From IMG/VR virus record IMGVR_UViG_3300010885_027908, positions 1 to 38,073 of that record: a DNA stretch of 38,073 bases. The stretch is one strand, 5' to 3'. The translations under genes and the position numbers were made by a program. This DNA is from a virus. The notes beneath the pieces are model-generated. The model saw nothing but the letters and a program-made list of their open reading frames with translations, ran no database searches and was not told the origin of the DNA. Of the stretch, positions 3,542-6,731 are shown piece by piece (position 1 is the stretch's first letter; the number at the start of each line of letters is the position of its first letter).

Positions 3542-3649
3542 GGTCATGGTTAGGGTCACAGTCAGGGTCATGGTCAGGGTCATGGTCAGGGTCAGGGTCA
3601 TGGTCAGGGTCACGGTCAGGGTCATGGTCAGGGTCATGGTCAGTGGCAG
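3542..3649 (+). repeat. 18-copy hexamer tandem repeat (GGTCAN)
   Basis: Eighteen contiguous hexamers, mostly alternating GGTCAT and GGTCAG so the higher-order unit is 12 bases, with GGTCAC variants and degenerate copies at the ends (GGTTAG, AGTCAG, TGGCAG). It sits between two genes. Several frames are open only because of the periodicity: a plus frame reads MVRV repeats and the minus frame reads DPDH repeats. I judge it non-coding. It could be an iteron-like protein-binding array, a replication or recombination site, or simple slippage. Confidence 0.9.
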
Positions 3650-3659
3650 GATAAAAAGT

Positions 3660-3863
3660 ATGGATAATAATGAAAAAGCACTTCAAATTATTTTAAATCA
3701 AGTTGATAAGCTCGAAGCTGAAAACGCCCGACTCAGGGAAGCGTTGGAAAGAGCTGAGCGGTATAATGCCGAGGGTATCAATGCGCTCGTTCGAGGATTT
3801 GTTGGTAATGCCGAAGTAGATTTTAGAGATTCACAAAAAGTTGCTATATTTGTGAAGCGTTGA
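3660..3863 (+). CDS. Small coiled-coil protein, paralogue of the gene at 4034
   Basis: A 67-residue protein starting MDNNEKALQIILNQVDKL. The start at 3660 is preferred over starts inside the hexamer repeat because AGGA precedes it by about 8 bases. Residues 9-40 form a heptad pattern ending in ENARLREALERAE, likely a coiled coil. A 31-base stretch encoding most of this (3718-3748) is identical to 4302-4332 in the neighbouring gene, and an 18-base stretch at its 3' end (3852-3869) matches 4425-4442. No known family; probably a dimerising protein that arose by duplication. Confidence 0.6.
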   Translation: MDNNEKALQIILNQVDKLEAENARLREALERAERYNAEGINALVRGFVGNAEVDFRDSQKVAIFVKR

Positions 3864-4033: not shown

Positions 4034-4450
4034 ATGGATGTGAAAAAGAAAATTGAAGATGCTGCTAGAACATTCGAGCAATATGATTACGGCAATAAAC
4101 AAGAAGAACAAGAGGATGCCTACAAGGAAGGCGCACACTTCGGCTATGCACTGGCGAGTGAGGAGAATGTAACACTGAAAAGACTGTACCATGATATTTG
4201 CCACGAATGGAATGAGACTTGTGATTCAGATTGCAGTTCTTTCGGACACACCGAAACTTGTAAAATGATTAATCTTGGCAATGCTAAAAGAGCACTCCAA
4301 TCTGAAAACGCCCGACTCAGGGAAGCGTTGGATTATATAGCCAATGCAAGTTGGAAAGACCACCCAGAAATTTCTGAAGCTATTGATGGAAAATATCTTG
4401 ATGATCTTTTTTCTCAAAAAGCCCGTGAAGCGTTGAAAGGTGGAGAATAG
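4034..4450 (+). CDS. Hypothetical protein with coiled-coil segment
   Basis: A 138-residue protein starting MDVKKKIEDAARTFEQYDYG. The ATG at 4034 has GAGGGA 7 bases upstream; an alternative ATG at 4004 overlaps the stop of the membrane protein but lacks a ribosome site. A central part with four cysteines or histidines (CHEWNETCDSDCSSFGHTETC) might bind a metal. The later ENARLREALDYIA segment is a coiled coil shared at DNA level with the gene at 3660, and the end KAREALKGGE repeats the theme. Family not recognised. Confidence 0.7.
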   Translation: MDVKKKIEDAARTFEQYDYGNKQEEQEDAYKEGAHFGYALASEENVTLKRLYHDICHEWNETCDSDCSSFGHTETCKMINLGNAKRALQSENARLREALDYIANASWKDHPEISEAIDGKYLDDLFSQKAREALKGGE

Positions 4451-4611: not shown

Positions 4612-4648
4612 TTGCATATGGGCAGTTTTTGCCTATACAATTAAATCT
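4612..4648 (+). promoter_or_regulatory. Palindromic promoter A, leading straight into the metzincin gene
   Basis: TTGCAT (4612-4617), the inverted repeat GGCAGTTTTTGCC (4621-4633), then TATACAAT (4634-4641), and ATG at 4649. The -10-like element ends 7 bases before the ATG and there is no ribosome site, so the mRNA would be leaderless or nearly so. A nearly identical element lies before the phosphoesterase gene (5734-5768). Confidence 0.6.
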
Positions 4649-5278
4649 ATGAAGTTTAACAAACTATTGATTTTAGTTGTTCTTTTAACACCCAGTTGCA
4701 TGATTCATTCATCAATCAATGTGCCGGTTCCAGCGCCCACTTCGACGCCTTCACCCACACCCACACCCTCACCAAGTGCAACGCCAGCCGAGCAAGTGAA
4801 AATCATTACATTAATTTGCGATGAAAGATGCACCGAGGTTGAAAAATCAAAGTTAATAAAAGTTGAAGCGAAACTCAATGAAACGCTTGCCAGCAAATGT
4901 TTTGAAGACTTTATCACTGACCCAAAGCGAAAGTGGAATAATTTACTCGGGAAAACACCGTGGGACATTGTGACCGAAATGCGCCGTCCACAAATCATGT
5001 TAGTCAACTATTACTCGTCTATTCAGTTTTGGGTTTTGGGCTATGAAATGGGTGGCGAGTCTGTCGTTCATTTAAACCGCGTAGCAATGGCTTACCACGG
5101 CTTTTCTATTTGCAATGAGGCATCGGTAGCAGCCCACGAAACAAGTCACGCCAAAGGCTTTATGCACGTTGGTAATAGCGCTAACAGCTACAATTTATTG
5201 ACGCCACCTTATCAAATTAATGCCGCTTTCGACTCTATTGATCAAAACAAAGGTAACGGAGCTTGTTGTAAACCGTGA
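4649..5278 (+). CDS. Metzincin-like zinc metalloprotease, predicted lipoprotein
   Basis: The 209-residue protein begins with a signal peptide (MKFNKLLILVVLLTPSC). Cys17 would be the lipidated residue, although TPSC is a weak lipobox. Residues 25-47 are a proline/serine/threonine linker, as found between a membrane anchor and a folded domain. The domain contains HETSHAKGFMH (163-173), matching the metzincin zinc signature HExxHxxGxxH; the usual downstream Met-turn is not obvious. Six or more cysteines suggest disulfides outside the cytoplasm. It is expressed from its own palindromic promoter without a ribosome site. It could modify the host envelope, for example exclusion of other phages, but no substrate is visible. 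Confidence 0.75.
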   Translation: MKFNKLLILVVLLTPSCMIHSSINVPVPAPTSTPSPTPTPSPSATPAEQVKIITLICDERCTEVEKSKLIKVEAKLNETLASKCFEDFITDPKRKWNNLLGKTPWDIVTEMRRPQIMLVNYYSSIQFWVLGYEMGGESVVHLNRVAMAYHGFSICNEASVAAHETSHAKGFMHVGNSANSYNLLTPPYQINAAFDSIDQNKGNGACCKP

Positions 5279-5511
5279 AGGGCTTCGTTCACTCAATGGA
5301 GCTAGACGACTTCGAGCGCGGTAAAGTTGATCAAATTACTATATATCGCAAGAAACCAAAGTGCAATGACGTCAGGTGTAAAATTTTACCATTTGAAGCT
5401 AACTCAGAAAAGCGCGAGAATAAAGAGAATGAACCTCCCCTCTCGGATCAAGATAAAAAAGAACTCGAAATCGTACGAAGTCGTTTGGCAAAGCGTAATT
5501 CAAGGCGATGA
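5275..5511 (+). CDS. Hypothetical basic protein
   Basis: A 78-residue frame starting with GTG that overlaps the metzincin stop (GTGA); an internal ATG at 5296 (MELDDFERGKVDQITIYRKKPK) is an alternative start. The N-terminal half looks like a small beta structure, and the C-terminal half is highly charged (SEKRENKENEPPLSDQDKKELEIVRSRL) and probably helical. Its last 83 bases overlap the next gene in another frame. No family recognised. Translational coupling with the metzincin suggests co-expression. Confidence 0.55.
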   Translation: MKGFVHSMELDDFERGKVDQITIYRKKPKCNDVRCKILPFEANSEKRENKENEPPLSDQDKKELEIVRSRLAKRNSRR

Positions 5512-5722
5512 AAAGTGCATGGGTCTTGCTGACGGGCAAGCAAAGACAATCACTTTAAAAATAGGCATGACCAAAGAAGAGACCCTTGAAACTTTCGTAC
5601 ATGAAATTTTGCATGTATTTACGTTTGAATATCCCCGCCTTAAAATAGCGCACCCGCTAATTTATAAGCTTGAAAAGCCGATTGTTAATTTAATAAAACT
5701 AAATGGCTGGCTTATCTTTTAA
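5429..5722 (+). CDS. HExxH metallopeptidase-like protein
   Basis: A 97-residue protein chosen to start at ATG 5429 (MNLPSRIKIKKNSKSYEVVW); the frame is open further upstream but that part reads unlike protein of this family. The pattern YEVVW...GLADGQAKTITLKIGMTKEETLETFVHEILHVF is typical of small phage zinc peptidase-like proteins (ImmA/SprT-type HExxH). HEILH provides two zinc ligands and the catalytic glutamate. It is cytoplasmic by appearance, with no signal peptide. Ribosome site weak; translation probably coupled to the overlapping gene. Substrate unknown. Confidence 0.7.
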   Translation: MNLPSRIKIKKNSKSYEVVWQSVIQGDEKCMGLADGQAKTITLKIGMTKEETLETFVHEILHVFTFEYPRLKIAHPLIYKLEKPIVNLIKLNGWLIF

Positions 5723-5733
5723 CTTGACCTAGT

Positions 5734-5768
5734 TTGCTTTAGGCAATTTTTGCCCATACACTTTTAAT
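5734..5768 (+). promoter_or_regulatory. Palindromic promoter B, leading straight into the phosphoesterase gene
   Basis: TTGCTT (5734-5739), the perfect inverted repeat GGCAA-TTT-TTGCC (5742-5754), then CATACACT (5755-5762), and ATG at 5769. Spacing and sequence copy promoter A at 4612-4648 almost base for base, again with no ribosome site. Confidence 0.6.
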
Positions 5769-6731
5769 ATGAGTGATGAAAATAAGAAAATGCAAATGCT
5801 AAACGAGCTTCGCGATTTAGCTTCTGAATTAAAACGCGCTCCGACAATGAATGAATATATAAAAGCCTATGGGCATACGAGACATTTTATCTCGATTATG
5901 TTTGGCGGATTTTCTCCCCTGCTTCAGTCGTTAGGACTAACACCACACAAGGCAAAGAAAATTGATGATTCTATTTTTGAAGTTAAAGACATAGAGTCGC
6001 ACTTAAATAAATACAATCAAGAGTCGGACATAATTGACCCAGTAAAAGTTTCATCGAATAACTGGTGTGTCGTTTCTGATGTCCATTACCCTTTTCATCA
6101 TGAGAAAAAGCTAGAAGAGTTTTTCCAGAGAGCCGAAAAGAAAAAATATGATTTGTGGATATTAAATGGAGACGTACGCGACATGTATTCTCACGCTAAA
6201 TTTCCGCGTTCTCATAATATTTTTACACCTAGAGAAGAGAATACACTTGGCAGAAAATTAACCGAAGAGTTCTGGGCAAGAGCTAAAAAGATAAACCCTA
6301 AAGCTAGACTTTTTTTGACAATGGGGAACCATTCAGTCAGACCAATGAAAAGAATTATGGAAGAGTATCCAGAGGCCGAAGATTGGATTGCTGAAGCAAT
6401 GAAACGAGAGTTTTCGTTTGATGGCGTGACGACTCTTTTTAATTCAAGAGACTTTATTTTGTTGAATGAAGAAATTGCAGTTTTTCATGGTTACAAAATG
6501 AAGCTCGGAGATCATAGAGATCAACATTTAATGAGTTGCATAACAGGTCACACACATAGACCGGGAATTGTTTACCGTAGAATGTTTAACAAAATTATTT
6601 TTGAAGCTAATTCGGGCTTTATGGGAAACCCAGCGGCGAAAGGATTAACCTACACTTCGTCAAAATTGACAGAATGGGTCAATGGCTTTCTTGAAGGTGA
6701 TGAGTTCGGCCCTAGATTTATTGCACTATAG
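5769..6731 (+). CDS. Calcineurin-like metallophosphoesterase with N-terminal DNA-binding repeat
   Basis: A 320-residue two-part protein. Residues 12-58 (ELRDLASELKRAPTMNEYIK...FGGFSPLLQSLGL) match the helical repeat found in homing-endonuclease-associated proteins. Residues 98-300 are a metallophosphoesterase: SDVHYP (D104, H106), NGDV (D135), GNHS (N187, H188), FHG (H240) and GHTH (H261, H263). All metal ligands are present, so it should be active on phosphodiesters or phosphomonoesters, possibly nucleic acid given the DNA-binding part. It starts directly behind palindromic promoter B. It could be a nuclease or an enzyme that removes a defence signalling nucleotide; sequence alone does not decide. 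Confidence 0.85.
   Translation: MSDENKKMQMLNELRDLASELKRAPTMNEYIKAYGHTRHFISIMFGGFSPLLQSLGLTPHKAKKIDDSIFEVKDIESHLNKYNQESDIIDPVKVSSNNWCVVSDVHYPFHHEKKLEEFFQRAEKKKYDLWILNGDVRDMYSHAKFPRSHNIFTPREENTLGRKLTEEFWARAKKINPKARLFLTMGNHSVRPMKRIMEEYPEAEDWIAEAMKREFSFDGVTTLFNSRDFILLNEEIAVFHGYKMKLGDHRDQHLMSCITGHTHRPGIVYRRMFNKIIFEANSGFMGNPAAKGLTYTSSKLTEWVNGFLEGDEFGPRFIAL

Follow-up and report, generated by a model that had tools for sequence, protein, structure and literature searches.

An uncultivated phage encodes a predicted lipid-anchored zinc endopeptidase of an unnamed zincin family

What use would a phage have for an exported protein with the zinc site of a protease, encoded apart from its structural and lysis genes? 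The question is raised by a gene in the IMG/VR virus record IMGVR_UViG_3300010885_027908; the window referred to throughout is the whole stretch of 38,073 bases that we analyzed. An earlier note, made from the letters alone, had described the gene product as a phage lipoprotein with a metzincin signature. Translation of 4649-5278 confirmed each part that it had listed: the signal peptide, Cys17 (the first Cys of the protein), the Pro/Ser/Thr linker, and HETSHAKGFMH at exactly residues 163-173 (Table 1). The last of these is unlikely to be a chance occurrence, because HExxHxxGxxH is expected only 0.005 times per six-frame scan of the shuffled window, and the invariance of the zinc-site residues in homologues settles that the motif is real.

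Table 1. Positions in the window of the lipoprotein gene, its parts, and neighboring features
Feature	Positions	Strand	Basis or remark
Lipoprotein gene with zincin domain, 209 aa	4649..5278	+	Translation, homologues, predicted fold
Signal peptide, aa 1-16, lipobox-like LTPS/C	4649..4696	+	Relatives have canonical lipoboxes at the same place
Cys17, predicted lipid-modified residue	4697..4699	+	Predicted lipidation; +2 is Met, not Asp
Linker, about aa 18-47, Pro/Ser/Thr-rich in aa 23-47	4700..4789	+	Translation
Zincin domain, aa 48-209	4790..5275	+	Alignment and AlphaFold2 (pLDDT 93.5, pTM 0.89)
HETSHAKGFMH, aa 163-173, zinc-binding helix and third His	5135..5167	+	Ligands invariant in 39 sequences
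Pro187-Tyr188 of the [ST]xPY motif, in the place of the Met-turn	5207..5212	+	>90% conserved; no Met
Cys206-Cys207, C-terminal	5264..5269	+	Probably paired with Cys84 and Cys155
Small HExxH protein, 97 aa, second cassette gene	5429..5722	+	Conserved in L085 and L086; frame open from TTG 5327
Metallophosphoesterase with HNH-repeat N-terminus, third cassette gene	5769..6731	+	Domain matches
Palindromic operator-like element GGCAGTTTTTGCC	4621..4633	+	15 nt before the lipoprotein ATG; TTGC upstream
Second copy of the palindrome, before the phosphoesterase gene	5742..5754	+

Relatives were found among uncultivated viruses by means of degenerate DNA patterns around the active site. They comprise four close lipoproteins (L026/L085, L016/L086, L018/L087, and L022/L088; 40-54% identity), a second lipoprotein group (L107, L109, L111, L112, and L055/L110, with L043/L114 nearby), and more than eleven phage proteins that carry no signal peptide. 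Cultured phages have essentially no family members; a protein of the Manatee Spring podovirus annotated as "bone morphogenetic protein 1" is a distant one. The family is completed by secreted bacterial paralogues, which occur mainly in predatory Bdellovibrionota.

Across 39 diverse phage and bacterial members, with identities down to 15%, H163, E164, H167, and H173 are invariant together with one Phe, and Gly131 and Pro187-Tyr188 are conserved in more than 90%. The chance that the motif would fail to be conserved in homologues, which the earlier note had named as grounds for giving up its reading, did not materialize. The Gly of the metzincin motif (G170) is variable, being K, N, or S in five of the 39; such replacements, with all of the zinc residues kept, were noted in L109, L111, L112, L118, L121, and L123. 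As the lipoprotein has no Met beyond residue 172, the canonical Met-turn is absent. The Met is missing from every one of the 39 aligned members; an [ST]xPY motif lies at the corresponding position. In contrast, a Met follows the third His in all of the 16 phage matrixin-like proteins recovered by those pattern scans. To judge by these alignments, the zinc site is evolutionarily constrained and the Met-turn is lacking family-wide. Separately, we observed that viral contigs often encode such matrixin-like metzincins with this Met in place (more than nine contigs); phage-borne zinc proteases are therefore not rare as such.

AlphaFold2, run on the family alignment, returned a confident zincin fold, and every top Foldseek match in the PDB was a zinc peptidase of the zincin type. 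The top ranks were taken by AsaP1, deuterolysin, and the Grifola peptidase GfMEP (probability 0.97-1.00, TM 0.51-0.56, E > 0.01), which we take to be M35 aspzincins; Wss1, adamalysin-type and ADAM enzymes, and selecase ranked lower, also with all E-values > 0.01. Among the 50 Foldseek matches listed, 9TPB was absent. When PDB sequences were searched by profile, this entry, described as a metallopeptidase and metzincin, came first (E = 2.4e-5, aligned over some 105 positions), ahead of HomA (9TPY, 0.003) and then of astacins. The Pfam matches to M10 (E = 0.11) and to astacin (E = 0.12) fell well short of the cut-off, while NCBIfam and PHROGs matched the proline linker only. No family in Pfam, NCBIfam, or PHROGs thus names the lipoprotein significantly, and all metzincin matches lie below the curated cut-offs.

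How, then, should the domain be classified? With the metzincins (astacin, adamalysin, and matrixin; clan MA(M)) it shares the HExxHxxGxxH zinc site at identical spacing and a weak profile similarity to astacins and matrixins near the helix, with 9TPB/9TPC as the best profile match. It differs from them in having [ST]xPY and no Met-turn Met, in the variable motif Gly, and in a similarity to phage matrixins that is limited, in a profile comparison, to 34 columns around the helix. The M35 aspzincins supply the best solved matches to its model, at E > 0.01 and TM about 0.5, and the best sub-threshold Pfam match for one bacterial member was M35. M35 enzymes use Asp as the third zinc ligand, a role that in this family most likely falls to the His in the extended motif. 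The M35 motif GTxDxxYG was not found in any of the 39 members, which have an invariant His at +10 and PY instead. Since the Met-turn Met is missing, the Gly is variable, and the top fold matches are M35, although sequence profiles weakly reach astacins and 9TPB, we assign the domain to an unnamed zincin family whose zinc motif is of the metzincin type, and leave it outside the metzincins. The metzincin claim of the earlier note therefore holds for the zinc residues and not for the family name. The structure prediction that it had proposed yielded a zincin fold, and the sequence has no Met for a canonical Met-turn.

The N-terminus has the architecture of an exported lipoprotein. In ten phage copies, the window copy included, a Cys ends the hydrophobic signal. 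The window copy has an imperfect lipobox, LTPSC, in which -2 is Pro; several relatives have canonical ones at the same place (LSGC, LMGC, VSGC, and LVAC). The +2 residue is never Asp, so the outer membrane is the likely location. The number of mature Cys, those after the lipobox Cys, is six or four in the ten copies (four in L112) and never odd, and among phage lipoproteins C57 and C61 are always present or absent together. Both observations are as expected for disulphides, which would place the domain outside the cytosol. The Pro/Ser/Thr linker differs in length between relatives. Values of dN/dS between close homologues are 0.16-0.28, which indicates purifying selection on the phage lipoprotein branch. 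The earlier view of a secreted, membrane-anchored zinc protease whose gene stands apart from the structural and lysis operons is, as a prediction, well supported by the invariant motif, the zincin fold, the lipobox, the even Cys counts, and this selection.

In the window, L085, and L086 the lipoprotein gene is the first of a three-gene cassette, followed by genes for a small HExxH protein and a metallophosphoesterase with an HNH repeat. The small protein matches PHROG 1233 (function unknown). We considered it as a relative of the lipoprotein, and a profile comparison (6% probability) indicated a distinct family; its model was poor (pLDDT 64), and no meaningful fold search could be made from it. 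Two kinds of repeat were also noticed in the window. At positions 3542-3643 a reading frame begins with an array in which a 6-base unit (GGTCAG/GGTCAT) occurs 17 times, and L092 has a similar repeat-coded ORF with MLWVW repeats (1302-1499). A near-identical 38-base repeat occurs in two ORFs of the window (3711-3748 and 4295-4332; ENARLREAL motif) and in related phages too.

The window contains exactly two palindromes of the architecture listed in Table 1, 14-15 nt before the starts of the lipoprotein and phosphoesterase genes. Their consensus is TTGC-N4/5-TAGGYA-N5-TRCC, located 12-15 nt before the ATG with no Shine-Dalgarno sequence. The element recurs at orthologous starts, before both genes in L085 (5972 and 7025), before the phosphoesterase gene in L086 (7017), and before the lipoprotein gene in L087 (553); the lipoprotein start of L086 has a decayed version. 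This conservation suggests that the palindrome may be an operator over leaderless promoters, forming a two-promoter regulon of lipoprotein and phosphoesterase. A simple promoter scan flagged neither site and showed no promoter excess, so that the promoter part of this reading is interpretative. A sigma-54 reading was rejected, as the GG-N8-GC spacing is wrong.

Homology, motif invariance, the predicted fold, the export-type architecture, and the conserved element in the promoter region were obtained by computation; lipidation, zinc binding, proteolysis, location, substrate, and benefit are inferred. On this evidence, we put the probability that the protein is a lipid-anchored zinc endopeptidase modifying the envelope of the infected cell at roughly 0.5. 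The lipoprotein would be an accessory product, made from its own promoter under a palindromic operator held in common with the downstream phosphoesterase gene and apart from the structural and lysis transcripts. It would be exported via Sec to the envelope of a Gram-negative-type cell, where a disulphide-stabilized globular domain would sit on a flexible Pro-rich tether. Zinc would be bound by His163, His167, and His173 and a water molecule activated by Glu164, while Tyr188 of the [ST]xPY turn probably takes over from the Met-turn and Tyr of metzincins in stabilizing the transition state. In the infected cell it would most likely cleave at least one protein of the envelope. The favored benefit is remodeling of the surface during infection, by loss of a receptor or exclusion of superinfecting phages. 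Known superinfection-exclusion lipoproteins, of the Llp and Cor type, keep a second phage from adsorbing or from delivering its DNA. The 12 phage records, all fragments, contained no integrase; this favors a function during infection over one in lysogeny, and a temperate lifestyle was set aside. Two observations weigh against the envelope protease, the Pro at -2 of the window lipobox and a dead tandem paralogue in L087.

The main and serious rival, though on balance unlikely, is that the anchored protease helps lysis: by cutting proteins that tie the outer membrane to the wall it would weaken the envelope and make virion release by endolysin and spanins more efficient. There is a precedent in the phage-derived Mtz of Listeria, a secreted metzincin that acts on the lipoprotein Tim, makes cells more sensitive to phage lysis, and increases the release of virions about 5-fold (PMC8235301). 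In addition, the gene of the signal-less relative in L039 overlaps an amidase endolysin gene, an arrangement that we confirmed, and the cassette in the window runs convergently towards lysis genes that include an M15 endolysin. However, those lysis genes are on the opposite strand and the lipoprotein gene has its own promoter-region element, while in other phages the gene lies between terminase and portal (L089/L090) or adjoins the DNA polymerase gene (L091), a variability of position seen for accessory genes. A further argument, from an M15 endolysin beside the relatives in L050 and L075, was dropped as this neighbor was not confirmed. Because of strand, promoter element, and variable gene position we favor surface remodeling or superinfection exclusion over help in lysis. 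It is very improbable that the domain has no proteolytic role and, with a structural zinc site, binds or sequesters a metal, a surface protein, or the adhesin of a rival phage. Here the dead paralogue is relevant: at 1189-1629 of L087 (also 3211-3651 of L018) there is a signal-less tandem copy without any zinc ligand (SEMMKMMGFPC) that is retained and can still be recognized by the family profile (E about 5e-9). Non-catalytic roles, to go by this copy, do occur in the family, and some members lack the motif Gly; against this, all examined copies that bear a signal keep the zinc ligands and Glu164 unchanged.

Another explanation, which we regard as improbable, is that the phage borrowed an enzyme from a predatory Bdellovibrionota host and that it helps prey digestion or exit from the prey ghost, yielding more phage. 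Exit from prey is known to involve a secreted protease in Bdellovibrio, one that belongs to another family (PMC12546842). We scanned one genome per species for 84,980 species; the close phage group gave no match as seed, and the wider group recovered the bacterial family at 14 loci: nine in Bacteriovoracaceae/Bacteriovorax, one in a "Proteobacteria" MAG that belongs to the Bdellovibrionota set and groups with those nine in the tree, two in Hymenobacteraceae, and two in Acidobacteriota. A profile search found the family in 55 of 369 Bdellovibrionota genomes, as compared with 2/296 Bacteroidota and 1/199 Acidobacteriota genomes, seeds counted. A single Bdellovibrionota genome can hold as many as 10 secreted paralogues, frequently as tandem copies. 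The bacterial members begin with a signal peptide or lipobox and show the motif HEWxHKxGFxH...[ST][VA]PY, and none matches Pfam or NCBIfam above the cut-off. They share domain, motifs, and export signals with the phage lipoproteins but occupy separate branches of the tree and mostly lack the phage cysteine pattern. The window lipoprotein falls in a phage-only clade of five rows (support 100/100), nested in a phage lipoprotein clade of ten rows (99/98), with the bacterial paralogues elsewhere and about six phage/bacterial label changes in all. Since its clade is phage-only and strongly supported, the gene belongs, on this phylogeny, to an old phage lineage and is not a recent capture from a host. 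A role in predation would also depend on a Bdellovibrionota host; against about 360 genomes of this group, the window TerL and endolysin gave only matches of about 30-39%, in 1-2 genomes. Terminase, portal, capsid, and endolysin had no close relative in cultured phages or Bdellovibrionota genomes, and host assignment by this route was abandoned.

Envelope-anchored proteases encoded by phages have seldom been characterized. Like Mtz, the envelope protease that we predict here would be a phage-associated, exported zinc protease of the HExxHxxGxxH type acting in the envelope; Mtz differs in having a Met-turn (AIMLD), an SPI signal, and a TIMP-like partner (PMC8235301), whereas here the protease is itself the lipoprotein and no TIMP-like partner was found. 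A wider proposal, possible but in our view doubtful, is that the family is intermediate between aspzincins and metzincins, as its His third ligand at metzincin spacing, its [ST]xPY for the Met-turn, and its aspzincin-like fold might suggest; that it expanded as secreted predation enzymes in Bdellovibrionota; and that their phages carry it as lipid-anchored tools under a dedicated two-promoter regulon. As the domain is soluble, of 160 residues, and confidently modeled, the question is directly testable. The lipoprotein exposes a metallopeptidase family that is absent from Pfam, NCBIfam, and PHROGs and has a zinc site outside the textbook divide between metzincins and aspzincins. The most interesting outcome is this unnamed zincin family and its expansion in predatory bacteria, whose prey-opening enzymes are sought as antibacterials.
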